From positions 106,036-170,035 of the forward strand of contig JAGBCQ010000018.1 of assembly GCA_017937925.1 (NCBI GenBank): 64,000 nucleotides of DNA, in the 5' to 3' direction. How positions within the stretch are numbered: the stretch's first letter is position 1; each line of letters opens with the position of its first letter. Source of the stretch: Paraprevotella sp. (GTDB lineage Bacteria > Bacteroidota > Bacteroidia > Bacteroidales > Bacteroidaceae). Below the pieces are notes generated by a model. That model ran no database searches. It worked only from the letters and a program-made list of their open reading frames with translations, and had not been told where the DNA came from. Positions 15,062 to 56,287 of the stretch are shown one piece after another. Position numbers and translations under genes: made by a program.

Positions 15062-15143
15062 AAAAATTCCGGACGTCCGTCATCGCGACGCCGGACGTCT
15101 TGCGTTTCAACGCCGGACGTCCGGAATTTCGCTGACTTCAGTA
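15062..15143 (+). repeat. 82-bp phased GACGTC element, copy 1
   Basis: Left border AAAAATTCCG (15062-15071). GACGTC palindromes follow at 15072, 15094 and 15116, exactly 22 bp apart, then the right border TCAGTA (15138-15143). The two outer units form an inverted repeat (AAATTCCGGACGTCCG near 15064 against its complement ending at 15129). Copies 2 and 3 (39354, 56206) share the spacing, both borders and most of the 16-bp spacers. No open frame, transposase or target duplication is visible. Confidence 0.85.
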
Positions 15144-15148
15144 TGGGT

Positions 15149-15186
15149 AAAAAAAGAGCGGCGCGCCCATCGGCGTGCCGCTCTTC
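15149..15186 (-). terminator. Rho-independent terminator after the 1499-aa protein gene
   Basis: On the minus strand a GC-rich hairpin with arms AAGAGCGGC and GCCGCTCTT, extended by CGCC/GGCG pairing around a short loop, is followed directly by a run of seven U residues (the A run at 15149-15155). It lies 20 bp after the stop codon at 15207. Confidence 0.85.
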
Positions 15187-15206
15187 ATAGAGTTTTATTG
15201 AAATGA

Positions 15207-18200
15207 TTATTTAATAACCATTGTCTTACCGTTTACGATGTACATACCCTTCTTCAAGTTCTTCAACTCGCTTGCAGGTTTGTTGTCAATCAACTTAACA
15301 CCGTTCAAAGTGTAAACAGTTACGTTGCCATCTTCAGCGTAGATGCTGTTGATACTATTACCACCTTCACAAATTACAGTTGCTGTAATCTCGTCAGTGT
15401 AACCGAGTACGTTGTAAGCATCGTCCATCAAGCTGATGTATTCAGCAGGAATCTTAAGTGTATAAGTACCCTTAGTTGCAATAGGAGTATTCAACTTCAA
15501 GATCATTACTGTCCAGTTGTCGTTCCATTTAACTTGTCCACCCTCGATTTCCTCAACAACGTTGCCGTCAGCGTCAACCACTACAGGATTTTCTGTTGTA
15601 GCATAGCTTCTGTCTAATTGATGAGCAAATGCGATTTCAAATTGAGTGATAGTCTCTACAGTTGAACCGTCAGCAGGTGTAAGAGTAGTAGGCTCTTTAA
15701 CAACTACCAATTCTTCAGCAGTGAAGTTGTAAGTCAACTCTGGGTTAGCGTTACCAGAAGTGAATCCGGACTCAATCCATGCGTTGTTACCGAACAAGCC
15801 CTCAGCGAATGTGATGTAGTATGAACCAGGAGCCAAAGCTTCAGGGAATTGAACCTTCAAACCTTTACCCCAAGACATCATGTCTGTGCTCAAGATACCG
15901 GTGTAAGCAGCCTCGTCGGTCTCAGCGTTGTAAACTTTGATGTTAGAATTCATTTCGTAGTTGATGTTTACATATTCATCAAATGACAAAACGAATGAAC
16001 TCATACCAACAGCAGTTTCACCATCAGCCGGATTAGTAGATGCCGGAACGAAGTCGTAAACTGTAGGACCACTGATAACAGCAGTAGTAGTAAACGCGTT
16101 GTTTGTACCGATTTGGTTGTTACTATCGTCCATCAAAGAGATGAAGCCTTCCGGCAATACGAATTCGTATGTTCCGGTCTCAGTGATAGGTTCTTCCAAA
16201 GCGAAGATCATCGTTGTCCAATCGTCGTTCATATTGATATTCTTGTAAGCGAATGTAGCAACAGTTTCGCCATCAGCGTTACGTAAGATAGGCATTTCGC
16301 TAGTAGCGTAGCTCAAATCGAACTTGTGAGCGAATGCGATTTCAAATTGAGAGATAGATTGAACATACTCACCATCGTACGGAGTGCAAGTAGTAGGATC
16401 TTTTTCTACAACCAAATCTTCTGCAGTGAAGTAGTAAGTCAACTCCGGATTTGCGTTACCTGAAGTGTAACCTGACTCAACCCATGCGTTGTTACCGAAC
16501 AAGCCTTGAGCGAATGTAATGTAGTATGAACCTGCAGCCAAAGGTGCGTCGAATACTACGTTCAATCCCATACCGCGTGACATCCAGTTCGGAGTCAATG
16601 TACCTGTGTAAGCAGCTTCGTCAGTCTCAGCGTTGTAAACAGTGACAGTAGAACTATTCTCCATGTTGATGTTTACATAGTCGTTGAACATCATAGAGAA
16701 CATGCTCATACCAACAGCAGTACCACCATCAGCCGGAGTAGTAGTTTCCGGAGTGAAGTCGTAAACTGTAGCAGGTAATTCAGTCATGTAGATGTTTACA
16801 TTGTCGTACCACAATTTTGCAGTAGAGCCTGAACCGATGTTGTTAGAAGTGTAACCTACAGTTACGGTTACTGTGCTTTCTTCTGTCAACTCGAATGCAA
16901 TTGCTTCAGTAGTCCACTTGCTACCTTCATAGCTAGTAAGAGCTGAGTTGAATGAAGTTTCACCGACAGTTACACCGGTCAAGTTGGTTGCTACATTTGC
17001 AGTAGGATTAGAGTTGTATGCCTCGTAAGACAAGATGTACTTACCGGCAGGAAGAGTTACATCTTGAGTGTAGCTCATCTTGTTACCCCATGCTGCAGAA
17101 ATACCCAATGCACTACCCATACCACCGGCGATATCAGTAGCAGGAGCTAATGTGCTGTTTACTGCAGTCTCTGAGCCATAAGCAGCTACGCCTGAATAAG
17201 CGTATTGACCTTCAGAAACAGCTGTCCAGTTTTCCAATTCGCTTTCGAAAGAGCCATTCAACAAGTTCTTGCTGATGTATAGATTCAAAGCGTTGTGAAG
17301 TTCTGAAGCCTTGTACTCAACATCCCAAAGAGTAGCCTCTGCATCATCATAAAGAGCTTGAGCCTCTTCCAAGAGAGCTGTACAAGCAGCGTCGTTGATA
17401 GTAGCATTCAAAGTAGCCATCTTAGCGCCTACTGTGTAAAGCACTTCTTTAGCGGCAGCCACTTTAGCAGCTTCTATTTCTTTTTCAATCTCTGCAAGTT
17501 CTTCGTCAGTAACTGTAGCGTAGTTCACATTCTTGAATGAAAGCCAAGAAACGTTGTTGCCATCAGCTACGTTGAGTGCGATTGTCAACTTACCGTCTTC
17601 AGCAACGGTAGCAATCAATCTGTAGTTGTCATAACGGAATTGAGCACCGTCGTCGCAAGTTTTACCGTCACAAACCTCTACGCTTGCATCGTTAGCAGAG
17701 AATGTAATGTTGTCACTTGAACTAGCACCGTTCTTCAAACGAACACGTACCAAAGCGGTAACTTTATATGTTCCGGCTGCCAAACCTTCAACAGTAGTAT
17801 CGATGGTCTTTGCGCCAAGTGAGTTGCCGTCAGCAGTCCAATATTCAACGAAAGGAACAGTCATGCCTGAGCCGTTAGCTTTGTTGTCAGCTTCAACACT
17901 CCAGTTATTGGTGTAAACAGCATCATCCTCAGACCATACGCTGCTGATGAATGGACGTGCCAAAAGATTGCCATCCTTGTATCCTGTGTTCCAAAGTTTG
18001 TTGATAGTGTTAGCGTCAGCTATGTAAGTACCTGCTTCGTAAGCTGCTTTAGCGTCGTTGTAAGCAGTTTCGTATGCCACCTTGTCAGCTTCTACGTAAA
18101 CATTAGTGCTTGCAAGGATTTCGGCAGCCTTGTCAAGAGCTTTCTTCAAGTTGGCATAGTCAGTGATAGAAGAGTTTGCTGCAGTGATTGCTGTAGTAAG

Positions 18201-19706
18201 GTCGGCAAGAGCAGTTGTAAGAGCCTCTTCGGTTTCAGCTACGTTCTTTGCATTGGTAATAGCGGTAGTAAGTGCTGCTAAAGCCTCTGCGTTCATAGCA
18301 GCTGCTTGGTCGATAGCTTCAGCTTCAACCAACTTCTCTGCCAATGTAGCTTGCAATTCAGACAAATCAACAGTTCCGGCAAATGCGATAGAAGCGTTGT
18401 CGATACCCATCCAACCGGTATTGTTGTTGTTGACGATACCGAACTTCAAAGTTCCATTGGATACCATGGTTTCAACTTCGTACCAAGTACCCTCGTCAGA
18501 TGTCATTTGAACTTGAGTGTCGTTTGCAAATACGTGTGCACCATTACCGAACGCAGCTACTTTAACTTTGTACTTACCATTAGGTAATCCGTTTATAACT
18601 TGGTAGATTGTTCCTGTAAAAGGTGATGGATTCCAGTTCTCAAAGAAACCACCAGTGATGATACCATTGCTCTTGTTAGAAGCGTGAGCCTTGTTTTGCG
18701 CGCCACCTTCACTGGTCCAACCACTTATATTAGTATCGAAAGTGGGGTTGACAATCAACCATGACATATCAAGAGTTTCGCCTTCGCCCAATTCGATAGT
18801 TGGGATGTATGCCATCTTAGCTGCGTTCAAATCAGCAACGATAGCGTCTGCAACAGTTGCATCTTCGGCAGCGTCTAAATCTGCTTCAGCTTTTTGAATA
18901 GCAGCTTCAAGTGTTTCAACGTCACCGGTAGAATTTACTGCATCCATCAAATCATAGCAACCATTCATTGCGTCAAGAACTTTGCTCATAGCAGCTTGCA
19001 TAGCAACAGCTTCTGCATAAACAGCATTCAATTTTGCTGTTGCTGCTTGCAAATCGTCCTTAGTTTGTGCTACGTTTTCTGTTTCTGACAATACGGTTTG
19101 AATCTTATTGTTCATTGCTGTGTTCAAAGTAGCTGCTTCTAAATTATTTACCTTAGAGTACGCAGTTTCGTAGTCAGCAATGAATGCATCAAGAGCCAAT
19201 TGATACAATGTCAACTGACCTACGATGAACCATGATTGTTTCAATGCATGAGTACATCTGTAACCGATGGTTATGGTGGTTTCCTCTGTCAAAGAGAAAT
19301 CCAACGTGTTCAAGTAGTAGTTATTGGTGTAGAAAGCTGTTTGAGCTTGGCCTGGATTGTCTGCGTATGAGCCCAAACCTTCAATACTACCCAATGTTAC
19401 AACGGTTACCTCTTTTTCACCGGCAAACATGTAACCGGTAGAAATAGTTGGGTCGGTGGATGATGATATACCATAACGATAGAATGCATATCCGGTTAAA
19501 CGATAGTCACCGGCCGGAAGTGTCACTTCCTGTGTAAATTGTCCAGAAGGAGTATCTACAGCACCCCATCCGGCATAGACTTCCTTCGCCTGTCCGGCGT
19601 AGTTGTCTGTCAAGTAAGTAGACGTCACGTCGGTCATACCGTCTTGCGCCCAGCTACTTGCAATGGCGAATATGGCCGCCATTAATCCGAGTAATCTTTT
19701 TTTCAT
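15207..19706 (-). CDS. giant T9SS-sorted surface protein with FIVAR-like and tandem Ig-like repeats (1499 aa)
   Basis: The start is set at the ATG at 19706 (MKKRLLGLMAAIFAIASSWAQ, a signal peptide). The frame stays open to 19799, but that ATG lies inside the -7 promoter box. Order: a jelly-roll/carbohydrate-binding-like domain (about 25-170), Ala-rich helical FIVAR-like segments (about 170-300), a second binding-like domain (about 320-450, 'NPTFDTNISGWTSEGG'), more helical segments, further binding-like domains (about 630-760 and 860-975), two tandem 235-residue Ig-like units (encoded 16062-16766 and 15357-16061), then a T9SS type A tail ending 'LKKGMYIVNGKTMVIK'. It has its own promoter and terminator. 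An adhesin or glycan-binding surface role is inferred; no catalytic motif was found. Confidence 0.85.
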   Translation of the reverse strand: MKKRLLGLMAAIFAIASSWAQDGMTDVTSTYLTDNYAGQAKEVYAGWGAVDTPSGQFTQEVTLPAGDYRLTGYAFYRYGISSSTDPTISTGYMFAGEKEVTVVTLGSIEGLGSYADNPGQAQTAFYTNNYYLNTLDFSLTEETTITIGYRCTHALKQSWFIVGQLTLYQLALDAFIADYETAYSKVNNLEAATLNTAMNNKIQTVLSETENVAQTKDDLQAATAKLNAVYAEAVAMQAAMSKVLDAMNGCYDLMDAVNSTGDVETLEAAIQKAEADLDAAEDATVADAIVADLNAAKMAYIPTIELGEGETLDMSWLIVNPTFDTNISGWTSEGGAQNKAHASNKSNGIITGGFFENWNPSPFTGTIYQVINGLPNGKYKVKVAAFGNGAHVFANDTQVQMTSDEGTWYEVETMVSNGTLKFGIVNNNNTGWMGIDNASIAFAGTVDLSELQATLAEKLVEAEAIDQAAAMNAEALAALTTAITNAKNVAETEEALTTALADLTTAITAANSSITDYANLKKALDKAAEILASTNVYVEADKVAYETAYNDAKAAYEAGTYIADANTINKLWNTGYKDGNLLARPFISSVWSEDDAVYTNNWSVEADNKANGSGMTVPFVEYWTADGNSLGAKTIDTTVEGLAAGTYKVTALVRVRLKNGASSSDNITFSANDASVEVCDGKTCDDGAQFRYDNYRLIATVAEDGKLTIALNVADGNNVSWLSFKNVNYATVTDEELAEIEKEIEAAKVAAAKEVLYTVGAKMATLNATINDAACTALLEEAQALYDDAEATLWDVEYKASELHNALNLYISKNLLNGSFESELENWTAVSEGQYAYSGVAAYGSETAVNSTLAPATDIAGGMGSALGISAAWGNKMSYTQDVTLPAGKYILSYEAYNSNPTANVATNLTGVTVGETSFNSALTSYEGSKWTTEAIAFELTEESTVTVTVGYTSNNIGSGSTAKLWYDNVNIYMTELPATVYDFTPETTTPADGGTAVGMSMFSMMFNDYVNINMENSSTVTVYNAETDEAAYTGTLTPNWMSRGMGLNVVFDAPLAAGSYYITFAQGLFGNNAWVESGYTSGNANPELTYYFTAEDLVVEKDPTTCTPYDGEYVQSISQFEIAFAHKFDLSYATSEMPILRNADGETVATFAYKNINMNDDWTTMIFALEEPITETGTYEFVLPEGFISLMDDSNNQIGTNNAFTTTAVISGPTVYDFVPASTNPADGETAVGMSSFVLSFDEYVNINYEMNSNIKVYNAETDEAAYTGILSTDMMSWGKGLKVQFPEALAPGSYYITFAEGLFGNNAWIESGFTSGNANPELTYNFTAEELVVVKEPTTLTPADGSTVETITQFEIAFAHQLDRSYATTENPVVVDADGNVVEEIEGGQVKWNDNWTVMILKLNTPIATKGTYTLKIPAEYISLMDDAYNVLGYTDEITATVICEGGNSINSIYAEDGNVTVYTLNGVKLIDNKPASELKNLKKGMYIVNGKTMVIK
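15357..16766 (-). repeat. tandem 705-bp in-frame repeat
   Basis: Two adjacent 705-bp units (235 codons each) inside the 1499-aa protein gene. Both begin VYDF-P (16766 and 16061) and share long blocks: 'VYNAETDEAAYTG', 'GSYYITFA-GLFGNNAW-ESG-TSGNANPELTY', 'QFEIAFAH', 'SLMDD'. Each unit appears to hold two Ig-like subdomains. The sub-blocks have diverged, so this is not a very recent duplication. Confidence 0.85.
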
Positions 19707-19796
19707 GTTTTGAAATGAGATTAAGTTTATAAATAAATTAATTAACACGTTCGCCGTTAAGCGTGTGAGGAGGTGTGTACTCCGCACAATACGCCC

Positions 19797-19827
19797 CAAA
19801 AGTAGTTTAATTTTGTTAAACTGACAA
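19797..19827 (-). promoter_or_regulatory. Bacteroidetes-type promoter of the 1499-aa protein gene
   Basis: On the minus strand TTG (19825-19827), a 20-bp spacer and TACTTTTG (19797-19804) fit TTG-N20-TAnnTTTG. It predicts a start near 19790 and an 80-90 nt leader, and rules out the in-frame ATG at 19799. Confidence 0.75.
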
Positions 19828-19909
19828 GAAAAAGTTCATAAAATTATAAAATCGTAGTAAAATGAGCGTCAAATCATTGCGATTCTTTTTTTATCCGCTG
19901 ACCTTTCCG

Positions 19910-19917
19910 TATATTTG
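19910..19917 (+). promoter_or_regulatory. -7 box of the M6 peptidase gene
   Basis: TATATTTG matches TAnnTTTG and lies 29 bp before the ATG at 19947. No convincing TTG is found at the usual distance upstream, so this is a weaker assignment. Confidence 0.45.
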
Positions 19918-19946
19918 TCCCCATATATATAATAAGGTGTAACAAG

Positions 19947-21434
19947 ATGAAGAAACTGTACGTCATTTGGTTTTTAAGTTTAGTGATGGGGTTAAATGGA
20001 GTGTTAGCGCAGACTGCAGCACAAGTCAATACACGAAAAATTGGTTCGATGCCGATGCGCAGTGGTTCGCCATGTATCCCCGTCATATTAGTGGAGTTTG
20101 CCGATAAAGCGATGAGCGAGAGTGATGCTTTCGCTGCTTTTGACCGCCGATTATATTATCACGCCGACAGAGAACAGGTAGAGAATGGAACGGGAACGGC
20201 TTACCAGTATTTCAATGACCAAAGTAATGGCGTGTTTACACCTCAGTTTATAGTGATAGGGCCTGTAAAACTCAGTCAAAACGCTGCCTATTATGGTGCA
20301 GATGGTGTGACAAGAGATACCAAGATGCACGTCATGATGTCGGAAGCCATTGCTAAAGCGTATGAGGAAGATATTGCCGTGGAATGGTCCGATTTTGATT
20401 ATAATGAAGATGGAACATGCGATGGATTGTATGTAATTTATGCCGGAGAGGGGCAGCATGCACACCCGGAAGAAACGGATTTGATATGGCCATCCACTTA
20501 TTCATTCAGCGAGGCAGGCGAGGAATGTCCGGTAGTAGGAGGATTGCGTTTTGATGGTTATTCTTGTTGTAATGAGTTGTTGAACGGTAAGGTAGATGGA
20601 ATCGGTACGTTTTGTCATGAGTTCTGTCATCAATTGGGTTTGCCCGATTTTTATAGAACGGATGGTGTGAATACCGAAGAATTTGCCATGGGAAATTGGT
20701 CATTGATGGATCGTGGTGGGTACGAGATGGACGGATGTCGTCCGGTAAGTCTGCGTGCTTTGGAAAAGGCTTCTTTAGGTTGGTTGGACCCGATTACATT
20801 AACGGAAGCGACAACCGTTCGGCATATTCGTAGTACAGATGAAGAAGGAATGGCGTTTAAGGTAGTTAATAAACGCGATGCCAACGAATACTATATGCTT
20901 GAGGTAATTGACGATAAGGGTTGGAACAAGAGTTGTCGTGGAAAAGGATTGCTTATCTCACATATCTATTTGTCCGATAACCTTTCATGGGATGCCAATA
21001 CGGTGAACAATTGTATGCCTTTCCGTGTGACGATTATTCCGGCGGACAATGACAAACCGAAGTTGATGACAGGCGTCAATGAGGATGCTTATGAGAGCAG
21101 TCTGTATGGCGATACGTATCCGACGGCAACAGGCAATAACGAGTTGACCAATACGTCAGTGCCGGCAGCCACCGTTCAAGTGGGAGGGTTGTCCGGAAGT
21201 ACGATGAGTAAACCTATCACTGCCATTACTTACGATGAGACGACACAAACCGTTTCGTTCGACTTTATGGGTGGCAGTGAAGCGAACATCATAACGTCAA
21301 TAGACAGTCCGAAGTCATCCTTCGGACCGGTGGAATGGTATCGATTGGATGGTACCCGTGTCAGTGAACCGCAACGCAAGGGTGTACTGATTCGCAAAAT
21401 AACCGACGGAAAAGTTGAGAAAGTGTACCGTTAA
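19947..21434 (+). CDS. secreted M6-family (immune inhibitor A-like) zinc metallopeptidase (495 aa)
   Basis: Predicted secreted zinc endopeptidase. A signal peptide covers about residues 1-22 (ending VLAQ). The catalytic domain includes 'PVILVEFADKAMSESDAF' near the mature N-terminus and the zinc motif HEFCH at residues 224-228 in 'GTFCHEFCHQLGLPDFY', followed by 'GNWSLMDRGGY' as expected for M6 peptidases. The C-terminal 40 residues ('NIITSIDSPKSSFGPVEWYRLDGTRVSEPQRKGVLIRK') look like a short sorting tail of the type seen in Prevotella secreted proteins. It is monocistronic and ends 16 bp from the convergent BACON gene of the second SusCD operon. Extracellular proteolysis feeding that uptake system is an inference from position. 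Confidence 0.88.
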   Translation: MKKLYVIWFLSLVMGLNGVLAQTAAQVNTRKIGSMPMRSGSPCIPVILVEFADKAMSESDAFAAFDRRLYYHADREQVENGTGTAYQYFNDQSNGVFTPQFIVIGPVKLSQNAAYYGADGVTRDTKMHVMMSEAIAKAYEEDIAVEWSDFDYNEDGTCDGLYVIYAGEGQHAHPEETDLIWPSTYSFSEAGEECPVVGGLRFDGYSCCNELLNGKVDGIGTFCHEFCHQLGLPDFYRTDGVNTEEFAMGNWSLMDRGGYEMDGCRPVSLRALEKASLGWLDPITLTEATTVRHIRSTDEEGMAFKVVNKRDANEYYMLEVIDDKGWNKSCRGKGLLISHIYLSDNLSWDANTVNNCMPFRVTIIPADNDKPKLMTGVNEDAYESSLYGDTYPTATGNNELTNTSVPAATVQVGGLSGSTMSKPITAITYDETTQTVSFDFMGGSEANIITSIDSPKSSFGPVEWYRLDGTRVSEPQRKGVLIRKITDGKVEKVYR

Positions 21435-21450
21435 AGATGTTGTTTTTTCT

Positions 21451-22485
21451 TTATCTCTTCAACTTGAAATTGACAAACATTTCAACCGGTCCTGCTATAT
21501 CCCCGTTCATATCGTAAGCCGTTATGGCGAGTCCATTCATATTCTTGCTGTTGTCAAAAGCAGAGTCGGCAACGAAGGTACACGCGCAAGTTCCGTCAGG
21601 GTTAAAAGAGAATTGCTTATCAAAATTCACTTTGCTTGACTCGGGATTCAGTGGGTCATGAGTGTCATGCATGGCGCCGTCGGTGTCGATGCCACATTGA
21701 TAAATACGGTATTCCCCCATGTAGATGCCCAAAGCATCGCCAATATTGAAGGCGAAATGTTGTTCTCCTTTAACTTTAGCTTTCAAGGTTAAATCGTCCG
21801 GCAATCCGTTGACAGTGATAGTTTCCTTATGACGAGCAAGCGTGACAGGAACGGTTTTGGCTTCTCCATACATATTGGTATATTCGGCAGTCCATTCGCC
21901 CATCAAGTCATCGACAGAGTATTGATAGAGCGTAAAAGGAATCTCCTTACCCAATGTGGGACAAGTCAGTGTCGTCGTTGCCATACGAGGCAATCCTGTC
22001 AGATTCTTTTCAACGTTTACGATGACGTGGTCAGATTCTTTCTGAACAGTTATCCATGAGTCCGATGCGGTAACCTCATAATCGAAAGGGGTAGCAATGG
22101 TCAATGCAATATTGTTGATAGAGTCGGACACTGCCTGCAAATGCTCGCTGTCTAAACGGAAGTAACCACCCATCTGACTGACAGGTACAGTTTGAATTCC
22201 ATTGGCAGAACTGATAGTAACGCGTGCGGTGCGTCCTTCAAGCGACGTGTTGTCATCCACTTTGATGATAATTTTATCGCCTTCCACCGTCGCCTGACAC
22301 CATGTTTCAGATACGCTGACGCGGCAATCGTTTTGTGATACGATGATAAACCCTTCTTGCGCCTTGGCGTTGAAATTCAGTTCGGCTTTAACCACTTTCA
22401 ATTCGGACAGATTGGTGTCTTCCTCATTGCATCCGCAAAGAAACATAGTGGCAAAAACGTATAGTATGATGCTATATTTTTTCAT
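21451..22485 (-). CDS. BACON-domain lipoprotein (344 aa)
   Basis: Lipobox Cys19 (LCGC) followed by NEEDT. Two BACON-like domains lie at about residues 28-105 ('VVKAELNFNAKAQEGFIIVSQNDCRVSVSETWCQATVEGDKIIIKVDDN') and 110-190 ('YEVTASDSWITVQKESDHVIVNVEKN'). A C-terminal lipocalin- or beta-type domain begins near 195 ('DDLMGEWTAEYTNMYGEAKTVPVTL'). It is the last gene of the second SusCD operon, 20 bp after the DUF4302 gene. It is probably a surface ligand-binding accessory; the ligand is unknown. Confidence 0.8.
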   Translation of the reverse strand: MKKYSIILYVFATMFLCGCNEEDTNLSELKVVKAELNFNAKAQEGFIIVSQNDCRVSVSETWCQATVEGDKIIIKVDDNTSLEGRTARVTISSANGIQTVPVSQMGGYFRLDSEHLQAVSDSINNIALTIATPFDYEVTASDSWITVQKESDHVIVNVEKNLTGLPRMATTTLTCPTLGKEIPFTLYQYSVDDLMGEWTAEYTNMYGEAKTVPVTLARHKETITVNGLPDDLTLKAKVKGEQHFAFNIGDALGIYMGEYRIYQCGIDTDGAMHDTHDPLNPESSKVNFDKQFSFNPDGTCACTFVADSAFDNSKNMNGLAITAYDMNGDIAGPVEMFVNFKLKR

Positions 22486-22505
22486 ATCTGTGTGTATTTC
22501 TTCCG

Positions 22506-23873
22506 TTATTCTTGTATCTTTTGTTTGAAAGTGATTTCGTTATATGTTCCCAAGACACCCAACTTCTCACTGGACATTTCTCTGCCACCAAAACCGTAAA
22601 GTACAAATCCGTTTAGTTCAGAGCCTGCAGTGCGACCATTGTCAGTAAACTTCAGTTCGCGTGGTGTCATATTGGTGGTATGGCTCACGATACCGGCTTT
22701 CTCAGTCATGTACATGGTACCGGCCTCGTCGTTCCATGGGCATAAGTAGATATATGCGTCAATATTCTCGCCGGTGGTCAATGTCAGCATGACAACATTT
22801 AGGTATTGTGTACGGAACTCAAGCATACCCGTTGTGTGGTTGTAAATAGCTTTGATGTCGAACTTAATATTGCCGGCGGAAATCTTTGTTTTCAATGTAT
22901 CAGTGTCTTCTATTCGAGTGAAGCGTACGGTCTCAACGGTATCTTTCATGCCAAACTCAAAAGTGTATGACAGTTCCCAATCGTTTTCAGTGTAGAACTC
23001 AATAGGGACATAGTCGTCCGGTCGGACGTATCTCAACATTGTATGTTCATTGGTCGTGCTATAAAAAGTTTTGTCGGCATTGTTCCATTTGAACTCGTAG
23101 AGTGTTTGTCCGTTGATGTTCGTCGGTTCGTAAAGTCGGATGCCCTTATCGGTATAAGCGAACGATACTTTGCGTTTGTTCAATTGACCGCCCTCTCCTT
23201 GTTCGCTGAATGTGATGACATTTTCTTGTGCAAAAGCAGAAGGAGCAAACTTTGCATCGCCATGGAATCCGACTAAAGTCCCATATTCGGCACTCTCGTT
23301 GTAGATGCGTTGACAGTCGTTGATGTAGGTCGTCCAATCCATATCGGAAGGAAGGCGTTTCATGGTCATGGCTGTTCCATGTTTCTTCCCTTTGAGATGT
23401 ACTTCGTCGGCTGTAGCGGAAGTAATGATAAATTCAAAATCACCTTGGAAACCATCGGCATCGAAACCGCCACGAGGTTCACTGTAATAGTGAATGAGAG
23501 AATTGTATGTACTGAAAGAGAGGACAGCTCCTTGTTCGGACGTGATACGATAGATGGAAGTCACGCTCTCTCCCGGTAATGTCGGTTCCGGGTCGTCGTA
23601 GCCTTGTACCTGACTGTCGGACATGACGGTAACCTCTTCACCGGAGAACTTTAATAGCCAAACCACGCCACCGATATCATGCGTTTCGCCACCGGGATAG
23701 TATTCCATAAGCCATCCATTGGGGGCGTCGGTCAGAATTTTTTGGTATTCGGAGGATATTAAGTCAACACGTTCAGATGGAGACTGGTCAAAAATATCGT
23801 CCTCACTGAAGTAGCAAGACTGTAGTGCGAACGCCGACAAGTATGTCAGGCAAAGAAAAATATATTTATTCAT
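22506..23873 (-). CDS. DUF4302-family lipoprotein (455 aa)
   Basis: The ATG at 23873 gives MNKYIFLCLTYLSAFALQSC, a lipoprotein signal with Cys20 followed by YFSEDD. An in-frame ATG 15 bp upstream only adds a non-signal stretch. The N-terminal pattern 'SERVDLISSEYQKILTDAPNGWLMEYYPGGETHDIGGVVWLLKFSGEEVTVMSD' is characteristic of DUF4302 proteins, which in Bacteroidetes often accompany SusC/SusD genes and an HExxH lipoprotein, as here. Function unknown; a surface accessory of the uptake system is inferred from context. It lies 29 bp after the zinc lipoprotein gene. Confidence 0.78.
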   Translation of the reverse strand: MNKYIFLCLTYLSAFALQSCYFSEDDIFDQSPSERVDLISSEYQKILTDAPNGWLMEYYPGGETHDIGGVVWLLKFSGEEVTVMSDSQVQGYDDPEPTLPGESVTSIYRITSEQGAVLSFSTYNSLIHYYSEPRGGFDADGFQGDFEFIITSATADEVHLKGKKHGTAMTMKRLPSDMDWTTYINDCQRIYNESAEYGTLVGFHGDAKFAPSAFAQENVITFSEQGEGGQLNKRKVSFAYTDKGIRLYEPTNINGQTLYEFKWNNADKTFYSTTNEHTMLRYVRPDDYVPIEFYTENDWELSYTFEFGMKDTVETVRFTRIEDTDTLKTKISAGNIKFDIKAIYNHTTGMLEFRTQYLNVVMLTLTTGENIDAYIYLCPWNDEAGTMYMTEKAGIVSHTTNMTPRELKFTDNGRTAGSELNGFVLYGFGGREMSSEKLGVLGTYNEITFKQKIQE

Positions 23874-23902
23874 ATTGTTGATATTCATAGTCTATATGCT
23901 CT

Positions 23903-24781: not shown

Positions 24782-24804
24782 TTTCCGTGTGTTATTGGTT
24801 ATAC

Positions 24805-39335: not shown

Positions 39336-39353
39336 CGTTAATCTATACATAAT

Positions 39354-39435
39354 AAAACTGCCGGACGTCTGTCGTTGCAACGACAGACGTCTTGCGTTTT
39401 GCTAACGGACGTCCGTCATTTTCGTAACGAAAGTA
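39354..39435 (+). repeat. 82-bp phased GACGTC element, copy 2
   Basis: Left border AAAACTGCCG (39354-39363), GACGTC at 39364, 39386 and 39408 (22-bp phase), right border AAAGTA (39430-39435). The first two sites are parts of a perfect 26-bp palindrome at 39365-39390, which could form a strong hairpin in RNA or a cruciform in DNA. It lies between convergent transcription units. Confidence 0.85.
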
Positions 39436-39471
39436 CCCGGTCAGAGAATTAAAATTACCTGAACTTACTCT

Positions 39472-39487
39472 CGCGCGCGTGCGCGCA
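39472..39487. repeat. 16-bp alternating pyrimidine-purine CG tract
   Basis: CGCGCGCGTGCGCGCA alternates strictly between pyrimidine and purine in an otherwise AT-rich intergenic region. Such tracts can adopt Z-form under negative supercoiling. Confidence 0.6.
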
Positions 39488-39507
39488 TTTACAATAGCGT
39501 TTAAATT

Positions 39508-39580
39508 ATGTTTCATGTTTCACTTTCTTCTGAAACCCTTTGTGGGAGCGGGTTTTAGAGTGAAACATCATGTTTCACAT
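39508..39580. promoter_or_regulatory. cluster of TGTTTCAC half-sites and hairpin between convergent operons
   Basis: TGTTTCAT (39509-39516), TGTTTCAC (39516-39523) and the perfect 19-bp palindrome GTGAAACATCATGTTTCAC (39560-39578) surround a 10-bp stem (39529-39538 / 39550-39559, one wobble). The half-site TGTTTCAC equals half of the ParB site parS (TGTTTCACGTGAAACA), but the halves here point outward. It could also serve as a bidirectional transcription stop, although no U run is present. Confidence 0.5.
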
Positions 39581-46662: not shown

Positions 46663-46666
46663 CTAT

Positions 46667-48418: not shown

Positions 48419-48432
48419 TAATAAGGTGAGAT

Positions 48433-49758
48433 ATGGCAACAACAGCATTTCAAAAAGTATATACAAAGATAAGTCAGATTACCAAGGCCACATGCTCTCT
48501 GAAAGCTAAGGGAGTAGGATATGACGAGTTGGCTACCATTGATGGTAAGTTGGCTCAGGTCGTAAAAATCGTTGGTGACGACGTGACATTGCAGGTGTTT
48601 GAAGGTACAGGAGGTATTCCTACAAATGCGGAAGTCGTATTTCTAGGTAAGGCACCGACTTTAAAAGTGAGCGATCAATTGGCAGGACGCTTCTTTAACG
48701 CATACGGAATGCCTATTGATGGCGGTCCGGAAGTTGAAGGAAGGGAAGTTGAGATTGGTGGTCCTTCGGTGAACCCGGTACGTCGTAAGCAACCAAGTGA
48801 ATTGATTGCGACCGGTATCGCAGGTATTGACTTGAACAATACTCTTGTGTCTGGACAAAAGATACCATTTTTTGCAGACCCAGACCAACCTTTCAATGAG
48901 GTAATGGCAATGGTTGCTTTGCGTGCAAAAGCGGATAAGATTATCTTGGGTGGTATGGGTATGACCAATGACGATTATTATTTCTTCCGCAACACATTCT
49001 CAAGTGCCGGAGCTTTGGACCGTATCATTTCGTTCATGAATACGACTGAGGACCCAGCGGTAGAACGTTTGCTTGTACCCGATATGGCATTGGCGGCTGC
49101 AGAATATTTCGCAGTAGAGAAACATGAAAAAGTATTGGTTTTGCTAACGGATATGACCTCTTATGCTGACTCTTTGGCTATTGTGTCTAACCGTATGGAC
49201 CAAATCCCTTCAAAAGATTCTATGCCAGGTTCGTTATATTCTGATTTGGCAAAGATTTACGAGAAAGCCGTTCAGTTCCCCGATGAGGTCGGCGGTGGTT
49301 CTATCACGATTATTGCGGTAACAACATTGAGTGGTGGAGATATTACTCATGCTGTGCCTGATAATACCGGTTATATCACAGAAGGACAGTTGTTCTTGCG
49401 TCGTGATAGTGATATCGGTAAGGTGATTGTCGATCCGTTCCGTTCATTGTCACGTCTGAAACAATTGGTGGCAGGTAAGAAAACGCGTAAAGATCACGCT
49501 CAAGTGATGAATGCCGCTATTCGTTTGTATTCGGATGCAGCTAATGCCAAGACTAAGATGGAGAACGGTTTTGATTTGACAGAGTATGACAAACGTTGTT
49601 TGGATTTTGCCAAAGAGTATGCCGATCAGTTATTGGCCATCGATGTGAACCTTGACACTACGGAGATGCTTGATGTTACTTGGGGATTGTTCCGTAAGTA
49701 CTTTAAGCTTGAGGAAATCAATATCAAGAAAGAGTTTACCGATATTTATTGGAAGTAG
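48433..49758 (+). CDS. atpB: V-type ATPase regulatory subunit B (441 aa)
   Basis: Non-catalytic nucleotide-binding partner of A in the A3B3 head. It has the B-type opening ('AFQKVYTKISQITKATCSLKAKGVGYDELATI'), no intact Walker A lysine loop (it reads 'GQKIPFFADPDQPFNE' where A has its P-loop), and the family blocks 'SNRMDQIPSKDSMPGSLYSDLAKIYEKAV' and 'GGSITIIAVTTLSGGDITHAVPDNTGYITEGQLFL'. Length is normal. Follows A by 14 bp. Confidence 0.96.
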   Translation: MATTAFQKVYTKISQITKATCSLKAKGVGYDELATIDGKLAQVVKIVGDDVTLQVFEGTGGIPTNAEVVFLGKAPTLKVSDQLAGRFFNAYGMPIDGGPEVEGREVEIGGPSVNPVRRKQPSELIATGIAGIDLNNTLVSGQKIPFFADPDQPFNEVMAMVALRAKADKIILGGMGMTNDDYYFFRNTFSSAGALDRIISFMNTTEDPAVERLLVPDMALAAAEYFAVEKHEKVLVLLTDMTSYADSLAIVSNRMDQIPSKDSMPGSLYSDLAKIYEKAVQFPDEVGGGSITIIAVTTLSGGDITHAVPDNTGYITEGQLFLRRDSDIGKVIVDPFRSLSRLKQLVAGKKTRKDHAQVMNAAIRLYSDAANAKTKMENGFDLTEYDKRCLDFAKEYADQLLAIDVNLDTTEMLDVTWGLFRKYFKLEEINIKKEFTDIYWK

Positions 49759-49779
49759 TAAATTCACCAGTTAGTAATA

Positions 49780-50385
49780 ATGGCTATAAAATTTCAATAT
49801 AACAAAACGTCGCTTCAGCAGATAGAGAAACAACTCAAGGTGCGTCAGCGAACCTTACCTATTATAAAAAGTAAGGAAACTGCATTGCGTCTTGAGGTAA
49901 AGAAATGTAAGGCTGAGGCAGTTCTGTTGGAAAAGGAATTGGAACGTCGGATTCAAGGTTACGAGTCTATGTATGCGTTGTGGGGCGAATTTGACGCTTC
50001 GTTGGTGGCGCTGAAGGACGTAGAGTTGGATGTCAAGAAGATAGCGGGTGTGCGAGTGCCTGTGCTTAACAACATCCGTTTGGAAGTTCGTCCGTTTGGA
50101 ATCTTCAGTAGCCCGAAATGGTACTTCGACGGTATCAACCTGTTGCAAGGACTCGCAAAGACAGCCGTAGAACGTGAGTTCGTTCTCGCTAAACTCGGTT
50201 TGTTGGAGCATGCACGTAAGAAGACGACACAAAAAGTGAACCTTTTTGAGAAAGTTCAGATTCCGGGATTCCAAGAGGCTGTTCGTAAGATAAAACGTTT
50301 CATGGAGGATGAGGAGAACCTATCCAAGTCTTCTCAGAAAATACTGAAAGCGCTTCAAGAGAAGAGAAAGGAGGCTGAGGCATGA
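49780..50385 (+). CDS. atpD: V-type ATPase central stalk subunit D (201 aa)
   Basis: Rotor shaft subunit. 'IKFQYNKTSLQQIEKQLKVRQRTLPIIKSKETALRLEVKK' starts an N-terminal long helix, and the C-terminal half ('REFVLAKLGLLEHARKKTTQKVNLFEKVQIPGFQEAVRKIKRFMEDEENLS') forms the second helix of the antiparallel pair, as in the family. Its stop overlaps the ATG of subunit I (ATGA at 50382-50385). No separate subunit F gene, the usual partner of D, is present in the operon. Confidence 0.94.
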   Translation: MAIKFQYNKTSLQQIEKQLKVRQRTLPIIKSKETALRLEVKKCKAEAVLLEKELERRIQGYESMYALWGEFDASLVALKDVELDVKKIAGVRVPVLNNIRLEVRPFGIFSSPKWYFDGINLLQGLAKTAVEREFVLAKLGLLEHARKKTTQKVNLFEKVQIPGFQEAVRKIKRFMEDEENLSKSSQKILKALQEKRKEAEA

Positions 50386-52244
50386 TTGAGAAAATGAAAA
50401 AACTGACGTTCTTGGTAACGGACAGAGAATACGAAACATTCTTGGCCGACATCCGCGAAATGGGTGTGGTACATGTACAAGAACTTCAAAGCGGAAAGAC
50501 GAGCGAGGCTTTGCAAAAAGGTTTGCATATGGCAGAACGCTATAAGGCGGCTGTTGCGGCAATGGATTTTGCAAAAGAAACTTACGATTTAGGCATTACG
50601 CACACTGCATTGCCGGTAGATGCGAAGAGAGGAAGTGAATTGCTCGTTGAAATCGAAGAAAATTTGGAGCAACACAACGCTCAAAAACATCTCATTGATC
50701 GTTTGGAAAAGGCGATTAAGCAATTGGAACCGTGGGGCGATTTCGATCCGGAATCTCTCAAACGGTTGGCCGAAGTGGATTGCTCAGTACATTTCTTTGT
50801 GTGTGCCTCCAAGATGTTCAAAGCGGAGTGGCGTGAGGATTACTTCGCGACGCCGATATCTGAAAACGGAGGTAAATGTTATTTTATGACATTCTCGCAA
50901 GAAGTTCCGAATATCACGGCCGAAAGATTGGATTTGCCGGAAAAACGTCTTTCTGAATATCAAGTTGAATTGGAGCAGGCTCAGGCGGATTTGAAAGCAA
51001 ATGAAGCACAATTGTTCCGTCTTCAAGCGGAAGAGCGTGATTCTTTATTGGCTGCAATGACAGAGAATGAAAATACCATATCACTGTCAAAAGTTCATCT
51101 CAGTGCCGATTCCTTGATAGGTGACACTTTGAAGATGATGGTAGGATGGGTATTGGCAGAAAAGTCCGATGAATTGGTAAAAATGCTTGATGATAAGCAT
51201 GTCTTCTACGAGGTGGAAGAACCGCAGTTTGATGACGATGTACCTATTAAAATAAAGAATGGCTGGTATAGTTCATTATTTGAACCCATTTTGCGTATGT
51301 ACTCGTTACCCAACTATCATGATTTGGATCCAACTCCGTTGTTCGCACCTTTCTTTATGTTGTTCTTCGGATTGTGTATGGGCGATGCCGGTTATGGCGC
51401 GCTGATACTCCTTGTATGTCTGTTCATGAAAGGCAAATTGTCCGATGACATGAAAGGGTTTGCTAATCTTGGTATGTTTTTGGGCGGTATGACAATAATC
51501 TGTGGAGCTTTGACAGGCTCATTCTTTGGTATCGACTTAACAAAGCAGGATTGGGCGTTCCTAGCTCCTGTAAAGCCATACTTTATAAATGAAAGTAACT
51601 TTACCATTTGGGGGTACAGTCCTATGATGGTTATTTCCGTTATCATTGGATTCATCCAAGTGTTGGTAGGTATGTGTATGGCGTCTGCCAAGGCCGCAAA
51701 ACTTTTCGGGTGGCGTTATGGTATCGGTAAGATGTCGTGGGTCGTAGCGTTGTTGGCTGCAATAGCTTGCTTCGGTCTCCCGGCATGTGGCGTTGTGATG
51801 CCGTTAGTTGTTACCTATATTTTATATGGTATTATCGGTATTTGCGCTATAGGAATCTATTTCTACAACACCCCGAATAAGAACGTGTTCATGAACTTCG
51901 GTTCCGGAGTATGGGATACCTACAATATGGCTACCGGCTTATTGGGCGACCTGTTATCTTACATTCGTCTTTTCGCATTGGGATTGACAGGCGGTGTGCT
52001 TGGTGGAGTCTTCAATACATTGGCATTCGACTTGACAGAAGGTTTGCCTTTGTACGTAAGGTGGTTGCCGTTGCTTCTCATCCTACTATTGGGGCACGGC
52101 ATGAATTTCGCGTTATGTATGATTAGTTCATTCGTTCATCCTATGCGCTTGACTTTTGTAGAGTTCTTCAAGAACGCCGATTTTGAAGGAGGCGGTAAGG
52201 AGTACTCGCCTTTCAGAGTAAAAACTTATAAAAAGAATCATTAA
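50382..52244 (+). CDS. atpI: V-type ATPase membrane subunit I / a (620 aa)
   Basis: Stator membrane subunit with the ion half-channels. The N-terminal half (about 1-300) is cytosolic and coiled-coil rich ('LSEYQVELEQAQADLKANEAQLFRLQAEERD'). The C-terminal half holds 7-8 hydrophobic helices starting near residue 320 ('PLFAPFFMLFFGLCMGDAGYGALILLVCLFM'). The essential arginine is R529 in 'LLSYIRLFALGLTGGVLGGVFN'. Length fits bacterial I subunits. Overlaps D by 4 bp and is followed 21 bp later by the ring subunit K. Confidence 0.95.
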   Translation: MIEKMKKLTFLVTDREYETFLADIREMGVVHVQELQSGKTSEALQKGLHMAERYKAAVAAMDFAKETYDLGITHTALPVDAKRGSELLVEIEENLEQHNAQKHLIDRLEKAIKQLEPWGDFDPESLKRLAEVDCSVHFFVCASKMFKAEWREDYFATPISENGGKCYFMTFSQEVPNITAERLDLPEKRLSEYQVELEQAQADLKANEAQLFRLQAEERDSLLAAMTENENTISLSKVHLSADSLIGDTLKMMVGWVLAEKSDELVKMLDDKHVFYEVEEPQFDDDVPIKIKNGWYSSLFEPILRMYSLPNYHDLDPTPLFAPFFMLFFGLCMGDAGYGALILLVCLFMKGKLSDDMKGFANLGMFLGGMTIICGALTGSFFGIDLTKQDWAFLAPVKPYFINESNFTIWGYSPMMVISVIIGFIQVLVGMCMASAKAAKLFGWRYGIGKMSWVVALLAAIACFGLPACGVVMPLVVTYILYGIIGICAIGIYFYNTPNKNVFMNFGSGVWDTYNMATGLLGDLLSYIRLFALGLTGGVLGGVFNTLAFDLTEGLPLYVRWLPLLLILLLGHGMNFALCMISSFVHPMRLTFVEFFKNADFEGGGKEYSPFRVKTYKKNH

Positions 52245-52721
<477 letters not shown>

Positions 52722-52740
52722 TCAATAAGAATAATGAAGT

Positions 52741-52780
52741 AAAAAAACGTCTGCCCGGATATTGGGTGGACGTTTTTTTG
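52741..52780 (+). terminator. Rho-independent terminator of the V-ATPase operon
   Basis: Stem ACGTCTGCCC / GGGTGGACGT (10 bp, two wobbles) around a short loop, followed by seven T residues (52773-52779). It lies 19 bp after the subunit K stop. Confidence 0.88.
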
Positions 52781-52813
52781 TGTATTTATAATACTCATTA
52801 CAAGTCTTTTTCT

Positions 52814-52821
52814 TATTTTTG
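52814..52821 (+). promoter_or_regulatory. -7 box of the metzincin-like protein gene
   Basis: TATTTTTG, followed by C, matches TAnnTTTG, 65 bp before the ATG at 52887 and after the V-ATPase terminator. No TTG at the expected spacing. Confidence 0.45.
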
Positions 52822-52886
52822 CGACGATAAGAGTCTCATTCTTTAATAGTGACAATAAGAAACAATCATAACTAAACAATAAAATC

Positions 52887-55800
52887 ATGAAAAGCAGATT
52901 GACATTACAAATGCTCATTATGGTATGCTTGTTTGCAGCGACTACTATAACCTATGCTCAGACAGACGTTACCGCCACTTATGTAAAGAACGCCGGTTTT
53001 GAGAATGGTTTGACCGATTGGATAAGTGATGGTATGGTGACACAAACCAACACCTCCTTTACGTCCAAAGAAGGAAACACTTATGTAGAGAAGTGGGTCT
53101 CCAAAGGAAGTAGAGTTGGCAGTGGTTCAGTGACACAGGAACTTTCCGGGATGTCGGCGGGTTCATATACGTTGACAGTAGCGGCTCAAAACATACAACA
53201 GGATAATGCAGCAGTTCAAAGCGGAGCCTATATTTTTGGTGGCAATAAGCAGACGACAGTTTCTGCTACGGGCGATTATTCTGTCAGTTTCATTGTATTG
53301 GATGGTACTGCATCTATAGGTTTTAAGGGTGTCGGTGCAACCGGTAACTGGTTGTCTTGTGACAACTTCAGATTGGTATATAATGGAGAGGCGGTAGATG
53401 AAGTGTGGAGTGAGTTTGATGCGCTTATCCAAACAGCGAAGACCTATGTAGGACAGAAAATGGGTAATGCCCAAGCAACAGCTTTAAATACAGCTATTTC
53501 AACGGCAGAAGCGACATTGCAGAATAAAACGTTTAGCGATGTGCCCCTTCATGCGGGAGCGTTGAACGATGCGGCAGATGCGGCAAAAATCTCTATAAAC
53601 GAGTATCAAACATTACAAGCAGCGATAGATGTAGCGATGGGACTTTATGACGAAACATTGCAAGGAGCTGCTGAATTTGACTCAGTTATTAAAGAGGCAC
53701 AAAGTACGGTTGACGATTTGGATGCCACTTCAGATGTGTTGACCGGTCAGGTGGTTACTTTGGAAAAAGCTTCTCTTAAATTTAAATTGGATAATGCCTC
53801 CGGAACAGTTCCTACAGTTGTTACCGACCCCCGTTATGCGCGCGGTTCATCTGTCATTTTCGGTCGTAGTACGGTTAGTGGTGTTGCAACGTCCCAAATC
53901 TCTGAACAAGGTTTCTGTTGGAGTACCCATCCCGAGCCAACAGTGTTGGATAGTCGGACAACTAATTATTTAACCAACAATGGAAAGATTTACCGTCTTG
54001 AAGGATTGACGCCTTCCACAGTGTATTATGTTCGTGCTTATGCCATGACAAAAACTTATGCTGTAGGCTATGGTGAAGTAATAAAAGTCATCACCCTTCC
54101 TAGAGGAACTATTTCTTGGTGGTACAATAACGGAGCAGATGCGGCCGCCAATGCACGTATCAATTCAGCCATTTCATCAGCGGTAGAATATTGGAATACG
54201 TACACGAGCATCAAGGGATTACATCTTTCTGTAAGTTATGGTTCAGGAACACCGACTGCCGATTGTAGTTATGGTGGTTCTATGCGTGTAGGTCCTAATG
54301 CAAGTTATCAGAGAACAGGAACCATTATGCACGAGATGGGGCATGCTATTGGTGTGGGACAACATTCCGTATGGTACGGACCAAACTCTCCTTTGCGTGA
54401 AACCGGTACGCGTGGTATTTGGTTGGGTGATAGAGCCACTGCCGTTTTGCGATTCTGGGACAATAGCACGACAGCAACTATGAATGGTGACGGAACTCAT
54501 ATGTGGCCTTATGGTGTGAATGGCGCGCATGAAGATACCGGTAGCGAGGTGCTTTATATTGCAAACAGTTTGATAACACAGGCTTTGGGCGAGGATGGAT
54601 TGCCTCCGACAGGTGGATTTGCCACTCCTGCGTATGTTTTTGAACAAGAGGACGATGTGAAGTATTACCTGAAGAGTGAGTCAGATGATTTTGGTGCTAA
54701 TACAGCTTATCTGACAATAAATGCCAATGGACAACTTGCATGGAAAGATATGTCAGGTACTGATGCGGCAGCCAACGATAGTGTGGCATGGTACATTACG
54801 TTCAATCCGCGTACTTCATATTATCAATTCAAGAACGTTGCTACAGGACGATTCCTGACTTATTACGGAACAGGTCGTAATGGTTTCCGTACAGCTGACA
54901 AGGCCGCTGCCACAACCACAGAGCAATTCCATTTGATGCGTTCGCGCGTGGATAAAGTAATAGGTGAGGGTGCTAACAGAAAAGCGATGAGAGGTTATTG
55001 GATTATACATCCCGAAAGCGTATTGCACCCTACATGTATGGTGCCGATGGCTAATAACAGAACAGAAACAGCTTCGTTCGATCTTTCCAATACCGCAGAG
55101 GTGCAACGTTGGTTGATTCTTTCTGAGGATGAGGTCGCAGGTTATGATAAGGCAGCGGCACAAGTGTTGGTTAAAGAAATCTCGGACTTGATTGAGAAAG
55201 TAAGGACTATGTCACAGACTCCGCATAGTGAGGAAGTTGAAGGTGTAGATGACGCATTGGAAAGTCAACTGCTTGATATTGAAAAAAGAGCTGTAGCTGA
55301 GGGTGTGACAACAGCGCAATTGTCAGCGATGCTTGATGAAGTATGGACGGCAGCGTTGGATTTCCTTGCAGAGGCAACGCCGGTGGATGGAACCCAACCA
55401 TTCGATGTAACATTCTTCATGGCCGACCCCTCACTGACTGATGCGACAGGATGGTCGGCAACGCCTACGATTAGCAATTCATGTGGAGAGTACTACCAGT
55501 CATCTTTCAATCTCAATCAATCACTGAAGAATATGCCCGGAGGTACATACCAATTCAAGGGACAAGCATTCCAACGTCCGGGAACATCAGCGGATGTGTA
55601 TGCTGCATATCTTAACGGAACGGACAATGTCGTTGCCGAACTATATGCCGGAACGAAGAGTGTTAAAATTATGAATGTGGCTGCTGAAGCTCAGACGGTA
55701 AAACAACATGCCGATGATGTAGCGGTTGGCACCAATCCGACAAAGTATATGCCTAATACAATGGCTTCTGCCAGTCAGTATTTCAAGAAAGGTTTTTATG

Positions 55801-56114
55801 ACAATGGGGTATTTACCGAGCTGACGGCCGATGGCAGAACTTTAAAGGTGGGTATTCGTGCTACTACTTCTGCTAATTCTTATTGGTGTACGTTTGACAA
55901 TTTCCGATTGTATTTCTACGGCAGTATGACGAAGGATATTATTGACGGTATAGATGAAGCTATAGTCGATAAGTCCAATATACATGGGTTGCCGCTATTC
56001 CCTGCCGATGTTTATACATTGAGTGGTGTATTGGTGCGCAAAGCAGCGGAGTCACTTGACAACCTTGCAAAAGGTGTCTATATAGTGAATGGTAGAAAAA
56101 TTTTAGTACCATAA
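52887..56114 (+). CDS. T9SS-sorted metzincin-like zinc metallopeptidase with binding domains (1075 aa)
   Basis: Signal peptide about 1-25 (TYAQ). A jelly-roll binding-like domain (about 28-165: 'NAGFENGLTDWISDGMVT') is followed by helical FIVAR-like segments (165-300), an Fn3-like domain (about 305-400: 'ISEQGFCWSTHPEPTV...LEGLTPSTVYYVRAYA'), and a peptidase domain (about 405-570). The zinc motif HEMGHAIGVGQH is at residues 482-492, with a plausible Met-turn in 'DGTHMWPYG'. A ricin/lectin-like segment (about 585-720, 'YYLKSESDDFGANTAYL'), helical segments and a second jelly-roll domain (about 840-1010) follow, then a T9SS tail ending 'AKGVYIVNGRKILVP'. The whole design suggests a protease anchored to a glycan or glycoprotein. 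Substrate unknown. Confidence 0.85.
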   Translation: MKSRLTLQMLIMVCLFAATTITYAQTDVTATYVKNAGFENGLTDWISDGMVTQTNTSFTSKEGNTYVEKWVSKGSRVGSGSVTQELSGMSAGSYTLTVAAQNIQQDNAAVQSGAYIFGGNKQTTVSATGDYSVSFIVLDGTASIGFKGVGATGNWLSCDNFRLVYNGEAVDEVWSEFDALIQTAKTYVGQKMGNAQATALNTAISTAEATLQNKTFSDVPLHAGALNDAADAAKISINEYQTLQAAIDVAMGLYDETLQGAAEFDSVIKEAQSTVDDLDATSDVLTGQVVTLEKASLKFKLDNASGTVPTVVTDPRYARGSSVIFGRSTVSGVATSQISEQGFCWSTHPEPTVLDSRTTNYLTNNGKIYRLEGLTPSTVYYVRAYAMTKTYAVGYGEVIKVITLPRGTISWWYNNGADAAANARINSAISSAVEYWNTYTSIKGLHLSVSYGSGTPTADCSYGGSMRVGPNASYQRTGTIMHEMGHAIGVGQHSVWYGPNSPLRETGTRGIWLGDRATAVLRFWDNSTTATMNGDGTHMWPYGVNGAHEDTGSEVLYIANSLITQALGEDGLPPTGGFATPAYVFEQEDDVKYYLKSESDDFGANTAYLTINANGQLAWKDMSGTDAAANDSVAWYITFNPRTSYYQFKNVATGRFLTYYGTGRNGFRTADKAAATTTEQFHLMRSRVDKVIGEGANRKAMRGYWIIHPESVLHPTCMVPMANNRTETASFDLSNTAEVQRWLILSEDEVAGYDKAAAQVLVKEISDLIEKVRTMSQTPHSEEVEGVDDALESQLLDIEKRAVAEGVTTAQLSAMLDEVWTAALDFLAEATPVDGTQPFDVTFFMADPSLTDATGWSATPTISNSCGEYYQSSFNLNQSLKNMPGGTYQFKGQAFQRPGTSADVYAAYLNGTDNVVAELYAGTKSVKIMNVAAEAQTVKQHADDVAVGTNPTKYMPNTMASASQYFKKGFYDNGVFTELTADGRTLKVGIRATTSANSYWCTFDNFRLYFYGSMTKDIIDGIDEAIVDKSNIHGLPLFPADVYTLSGVLVRKAAESLDNLAKGVYIVNGRKILVP

Positions 56115-56205
56115 TAACTCAGAGTTTTAAGGGAGTATCAAGAGGCAGAATTAGGCACTTTTTACCTCTTTTGCAAAGAGCTTAAAATCAGTGGTCTATA
56201 AATGT

Positions 56206-56287
56206 AAAAATGACGGACGTCCGTCATTTAAACGCAAGACGTCTGTCGTCGCAACGGCGGACGTCTTGCGTTTTGATGATCTCAGTA
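56206..56287 (+). repeat. 82-bp phased GACGTC element, copy 3
   Basis: Left border AAAAATGACG (56206-56215), GACGTC at 56216, 56238 and 56260 (22-bp phase), right border TCAGTA (56282-56287). The spacer order is permuted relative to copies 1 and 2: the CGTCATTT-type unit comes first here, not last. Units 2 and 3 make an inverted repeat with 14-bp arms (AAACGCAAGACGTC and its complement). It lies 91 bp after the metzincin-like gene. Confidence 0.85.

Follow-up and report, generated by a model that had tools for sequence, protein, structure and literature searches.

What reads a short intergenic DNA element that keeps its spacing while its letters drift? The question is raised by a repeated element in a 64,000-nt stretch of Paraprevotella sp. 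contig JAGBCQ010000018.1 (the window), in which palindromic GACGTC boxes recur at a strict 22-bp phase. The window belongs to a draft genome (G000; 2,060,335 bases, 33 contigs, 78.6% complete) from a group of anaerobes that live in animal guts. Intergenic repeats of bacteria are generally sorted by their sequence, whereas in this case it seems to be the spacing that is conserved: substitutions are common and small insertions and deletions (indels) are unseen, which points to a putative reader of DNA geometry.

The original prediction described three window copies of an 82-bp element, each with three hexamers, shared borders and a common orientation. All nine hexamers, their 22/22 spacing and the borders of these three copies read as described. 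The real extent is about 94 bp, since the right border WMAGTA lies at +22 and makes up a fourth box, of degenerate sequence; the borders are additional boxes of this kind, and they vary among other copies. The common orientation holds for the near-symmetric borders, but judged by the inner modules copy 3 runs opposite to copies 1 and 2. The window copies, which a profile search found again at matching positions, are as follows.

15050..15143, plus strand: copy 1, with GACGTC at 15072, 15094 and 15116 and degenerate end boxes TACTTT at 15050 (-22) and TCAGTA at 15138, all boxes 22 bp apart.
39342..39435, plus strand: copy 2, with GACGTC at 39364, 39386 and 39408, end box AAAGTA at 39430 and an eroded box 0 at 39342 (TCTATA).
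56194..56287, minus strand: copy 3, with GACGTC at 56216, 56238 and 56260, end box TCAGTA at 56282 and an eroded position at 56194 (GTCTAT).

Chance is exceeded by the phasing of GACGTC, not by its count. Triplets of one palindromic hexamer occur in the window three times, always with period 22; none has any other period between 12 and 40 or, in a wider scan, between 10 and 80. Lone GACGTC sites show no excess (15 versus a shuffle mean of 10.6, with at least 15 in 14 of 100 shuffles). Across the genome, 31 exact GACGTC-N16-GACGTC-N16-GACGTC triplets were found and none for the reversed control pattern, which bears out the claims that phased triplets are non-random and that copies exceed chance genome-wide. 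A profile built from the 31 triplet copies (threshold E=0.1) gave 95 strand matches at 48 places. When spacers of 14 to 18 were allowed, all of the at least 70 GACGTC pairs had spacer 16 (62 from the 31 triplets and 8 in further copies). The other spacers up to 40, recounted on the element's own loci, were 38 (five pairs, two units) and 1 plus 9 (four copies in which a unit contains one more hexamer).

The element is thus a five-position array, three GACGTC boxes with a degenerate box at each end, all in one 22-bp phase. When turned so that their inner modules agree, the 31 copies follow one plan, which reads roughly TACTGAGGTCAnnAAAATGACG [GACGTC] CGTCGTCGCGACGACA [GACGTC] TTGCGTTTTGATGACG [GACGTC] CGTCATTTTGnTnACGAAAGGA. 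The order of modules is mostly constant, and in 23 of the 31 copies the module that follows the middle box on its right starts with TTGCGT. Conservation declines toward the end boxes, and the ends are near-symmetric yet variable between copies. Imperfect copies carry boxes such as AACGTC, GACGTT, GACTGA, TCAGTC and TACTGA with the phase retained, and one copy (L002) has an extra AACGTC box at +22.

Comparison of match length with model length, taking one row per place out of the 95 strand rows, revealed no indel at 47 of the 48 places and a difference of exactly +22 at the remaining one. The letters change freely, mean divergence from the consensus being 13% for triplets and 23% for other copies. 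This count covers the 31 triplets and 15 of the 17 extra loci with matches; L232, the +22 place, and the weak L234 were left out, and L235 lacks the element. A useful yardstick is R2, another repeat of the same genome that lies mostly beside the elements and has 46 gap openings against 284 mismatches (in 22 copies; of 26 matches, four short sub-matches were left out, and the alignment took 19 of the 22). That ratio would predict 85 gap openings from the 524 mismatches counted over 46 element copies; the ratio comes from BLAST with a hand-made R2 query and is therefore rough, but the contrast is large. The boxes are also more constant than the remaining letters in the 15 extra copies, which were not chosen by hexamer (39 of 270 box positions changed versus 179 of 660 others, p=2.7e-5). 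With small indels absent and substitution free, the simplest reading is a reader of double-stranded DNA geometry, possibly a host protein or a transposase, the boxes standing about two turns apart.

We then ask how far this design extends beyond one genome. None of 100 relatives, of which 17 belong to the same genus, contains the exact triplet pattern, and the element profile had no match in the 17 other genus genomes, several of which are 70-87% complete. Among the relatives searched, the element sequence is species-private, so the expectation that GACGTC would be kept in related genomes fails (0 of 17), while the 22-bp spacing recurs there with other boxes. A family-wide pattern scan matched 5 of 399 genomes, G000 included; in the other four (G140, G338, G350 and G400) the spacers read differently. 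At G338:C3:161660-161731 and G400:C14:51354-51425 (another genus), four GACGTC boxes keep the 22-bp phase, again with different spacers, and both arrays may belong to the wider 22-bp class. A phage origin was rejected after two patterns gave 0 matches in viral contigs. A broad scan of genome contigs, from which near genomes were possibly left out, gave one match, to a Victivallales metagenome-assembled genome, without the 22-bp plan; the sequence there (L058, 1-220) is a GACGTC-rich repeat.

Other boxes take the place of GACGTC in relatives. TGCGCA triplets at 22 bp occur nine times in 200 kb of G002. AGTACT triplet matches number 5 in G001, 3 in G004, 7 in G008 and 3 in G009 (12 genomes searched, overlapping matches counted). 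GATATC pairs are found in G010, and the same unit in G017. In other genera, CTGCAG triplet matches amount to 12 in G214, three in G340 and two in G341; these arrays came to notice because CTGCAG is the reversed control of GACGTC. A scan that presupposes no hexamer, run over 1.264 Mb from 11 genomes with the window included and lags of 12-40, returned 29 arrays for lag 22 and 6 for lag 23, against 20 for the remaining 27 lags combined. Lag 22 appeared in every sample except that of G009, that is, in nine of the ten other genus genomes sampled. Further samples yielded lag-22 arrays in G014 (1), G019 (4, one overlapping a 21-bp array), G030 (1) and G089 (1), and arrays at other lags in G030 (2 at lag 21), G032 (3 at lag 21) and G062 (one each at lags 21 and 23). 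Unrelated boxes thus share one 22-bp phase in related species, which suggests that spacing matters more than sequence, and the GACGTC family is a species-private member of a recurring class.

Two samples deserve separate mention. In that of G016 (L116-L119), 23-bp arrays prevail, with three at lag 23 and one at lag 22. G010 has a second 22-bp family of near-identical units TTTGAAACTGTGTGTTCCGGGC (L107, 18834-18970; L110, 18391-18486), and a 23-bp palindromic array (ACGATTATAAATCGTAC) is also present in L110.

Tandem units of fixed length bring to mind neutral minisatellites that arise by replication slippage, the 22-bp unit being a mutational accident kept by gene conversion. Possible changes of whole-unit copy number (the +22 place and the extra box of L002) and the near-identical units of one G010 array would fit such an origin. 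The preference for lag 22 over all other lags, the many unrelated unit sequences and the absence of small indels at 13-23% mean divergence do not, and we regard this explanation as improbable.

The reading that we favour, tentatively and at somewhat less than even confidence, is a dispersed repeat family that serves as a DNA-level docking array for a candidate protein, with both the reader and the mode of spread inferred. The array would act as double-stranded DNA, and a DNA-binding protein would dock on each box, probably as a dimer, given that several families have palindromic boxes. Neighbouring protein molecules, separated by about two turns, would sit on nearly the same face of the DNA and cooperate in binding. 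Any indel that falls between boxes would break this line-up and be removed, whereas substitutions, and gain or loss of a whole 22-bp unit, would be tolerated. The letters would turn over between species as protein and boxes change together. The copies probably go back to one ancestor, since their module order is mostly constant, and would have been spread by a copying process. The interpretation first offered for the window therefore stands as far as a repeated intergenic element with a strict 22-bp phase that fits a reader of DNA geometry is concerned; conservation of GACGTC in relatives does not stand. A broader proposal, which we put forward as rather doubtful, is a genus-wide, possibly wider, system of 22-bp docking arrays in which geometry is inherited and letters are species-private, with a fast-evolving DNA-binding protein and its boxes co-evolving, as in conflict or drive, and marking gene ends across the chromosome. 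No description of such a class or system was found in open-licence literature.

Several observations weigh against a docking array, in addition to the roughness of the R2 comparison. At the +22 place, the row not taken (C14:3328-3414, on the other strand) aligns without an indel. Significant dyad symmetry is present in just 12 of the 34 lag-22/23 arrays of relatives (2 of 21 at other lags), which speaks against dyad symmetry as a feature shared by all arrays and makes a dimeric reader a guess for the palindromic families, not a rule. Some samples hold zero or one lag-22 array. No array at lags 21-23 was seen in samples of G006 (5 kb), G026, G029, G066 and G068, and none in 44 kb of the close relative G007 (70% complete); the lag-scan samples are small and often contig starts, so that absence from one of them is weak. 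Finally, the three window copies have the potential to form strong hairpins (z -3.2 to -8.2), and the outer arms come near significance for arm identity (5 identical versus 2.4 expected, p=0.05).

The hairpin potential leads to an RNA-level element, in the manner of a repetitive extragenic palindromic (REP) hairpin at the 3' end that protects or processes transcripts. Besides the strong folding, it would account for an excess of copies between convergent genes, described below. The three window copies fold differently, however, pairing different boxes, and none of eight arm pairs covaries significantly above shuffles in the 31 copies. Indels in loops should be tolerated, yet they are absent. 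Orientation relative to transcription is even (11 of the 20 tandem copies the same, 9 opposite), and just 11 of these 20 lie nearer the upstream gene and its 3' end. We consider an RNA-level role unlikely, and count the differing folds, the lack of significant covariation and the even orientation in favour of the docking array.

The genomic placement of the family was assessed with gene calls from a codon-bias caller for 47 of the 48 places, the weak L234 being left out. Seventeen copies lie between convergent genes, 20 between tandem genes, 4 between divergent genes and 6 at contig edges; none is inside a gene. In the window, copy 1 is between tandem genes and copies 2 and 3 are between convergent genes. 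Background gaps of at least 60 bp in samples of ten other genomes comprise 60 convergent, 283 tandem and 86 divergent ones. Convergent gaps are therefore enriched among placed copies (17 of 41 versus 60 of 429, p=1.6e-5), and the lower share between divergent genes falls short of significance (p=0.12). The lag-22/23 arrays of the ten other genomes are similarly intergenic (29 of 34, with 3 at edges and 2 genic). Type 9 secretion-like C-termini, identified by a motif, showed no association with the copies (5 of 57 neighbours versus 10 of 146 genes).

An excess between convergent genes is also what bidirectional intrinsic terminators would produce. A hairpin followed by a T-run was, in a crude scan, found inside the element in 4 of 47 copies, and a separate one within 200 bp in 13 of 47. 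A terminator-like repeat is also present in the window.

15154..15185, minus strand: terminator-like inverted repeat AAGAGCGGCGCGCC/GGCGTGCCGCTCTT, with an A-run on its left.

This inverted repeat adjoins copy 1, is separate from it and lies at the 3' end of the gene ending at 15207.

Orthologous sites, read by eye on printed stretches, bear on the same question. Downstream of rpoC (16 loci, one unreadable), the element of G000 stands between two ordinary convergent terminators, and G007 retains the same gene order and two terminators with no array. We accordingly hold a terminator role to be very unlikely, and the rpoC context, covariation, orientation and differing folds weaken the terminator and RNA-hairpin readings alike. 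At the same site G002 carries a TGCGCA array, whereas the 22-bp array found in both G004 and G009 is orthologous and shows substitutions. In G001 (L157), the sequence that follows the rpoC terminator appears similar to the beginning of a group II intron. Where tadA ends (3' side; 17 genomes, 10 judged), the GACGTC element or an AGTACT counterpart is present in G000, G008 and G004, and none was seen by eye in G007, G014, G013, G001, G015, G002 or G005.

Sites that are empty in one species and occupied in another raise the possibility of a miniature inverted-repeat transposable element (MITE), moved by a transposase acting in trans, for which the 22-bp array would be a transposase binding array with no host function. 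G007 lacks the element at both tadA and rpoC 3' ends; this empty-site view depends on G007, which is too diverged for a precise join, and no conspecific genome was found. Near-symmetric if variable ends, the high copy number, the mostly constant module order in 31 copies and the species-private expansion also agree with a MITE, as does the co-travelling R2, whose window copy is the following.

39469..39578 (G000:C13:145504-145613), plus strand: R2 module, with a GCGCGC run, TTTCATGTTTCA and GTGAAACATCATGTTTCAC.

The R2 repeat (loci L029-L050) is some 140 bp long and contains alternating GCGCGC, TTTCATGTTTCA and GTGAAACATGATGTTTCA; it accompanies a subset of the GACGTC elements. Twenty of its 22 matches lie within 250 bp of an element, 19 of these 20 with the same end facing it. 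Fifteen are on the TTGCGTTTTG side and 5 on the opposite side, which rules out that R2 always keeps to one side. The starts of contigs L005, L008 and L018 share left-flank stretches adjoining composite GACGTC and R2 elements, perhaps as part of a larger duplicated region that broke the assembly.

Against a MITE, target-site duplications of 4, 5, 6, 8 or 9 bp stay at or below the shuffled maxima in 46 copies (k=2 and 3 lacked a shuffle control, k=7 gave none, and erosion of old duplications is possible). Among transposases, Y1 was the sole type searched for, and none that goes with these ends is known in this case; one MITE family leaves unexplained the 22-bp phase with unrelated letters in relatives. 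We judge a MITE possible though not likely.

Comparison with known systems sets the docking-array reading in context. At the transposon ends bound by MuA and by TnsB of Tn7, several sites, each some 22 bp long, follow one another and are recognized by a single protein family. Those sites are directional and delimit large elements, whereas here the main boxes are palindromic with no element between them. Searches with Rfam 15 gave two tRNA genes only in 15 sources, the window included, and nothing up to E=5 for L010.

REPs, in the parts of PMC3733652 covered, are GTAG- or CGTC-tagged stem-loops of 20-40 bp with the tag at one end, often paired. Like REPs and bacterial interspersed mosaic elements (BIMEs), the family consists of palindromic intergenic repeats, often species-specific, mainly between convergent and co-directional genes (PMC3733652). 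Unlike REPs with their associated tyrosine transposases (RAYTs), it has a fixed 22-bp array, no conserved stem and no Y1 transposase found in G000. Y1 (PF01797) had 0 matches in G000 (79% complete) and G002, and matches in 4 of 15 genomes searched (G010, G214, G340 and G341). CGTC is frequent in the 31 copies; a stem of 8-9 bp, a loop of 4-5 nt and a CCA tail were not seen by eye, with no model search made. A REP-RAYT system was rejected for the lack of a Y1 transposase in G000 and because compensatory changes in the stem-loops are not significant. The covered parts of PMC5771137 and PMC9426551 contain no description of this class.

The closest known kind is BrickBuilt, a 23-nt minisatellite-MITE. 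Its host, Porphyromonas gingivalis, belongs to the same order of bacteria as the present one. As far as the source paper was covered, BrickBuilt is a 23-nt intergenic minisatellite within a MITE, present at 19 loci with 1 to 22.8 units, 0-6% insertions and deletions, and leader and tail terminal inverted repeats that were compared with those of insertion sequence (IS) elements (PMC4596501). The paper's text nowhere contains "palindrom-", and conservation of phase across species is not reported in the parts covered (PMC4596501). The unit letters of our family differ by inspection from AGAYCATARTATCCTCTCRTRTG, and its period is 22 rather than 23. Like BrickBuilt as described in those parts, the family is intergenic and dispersed, has a unit of about two helical turns and is flanked by other conserved segments, a place taken in BrickBuilt by the leader and tail.

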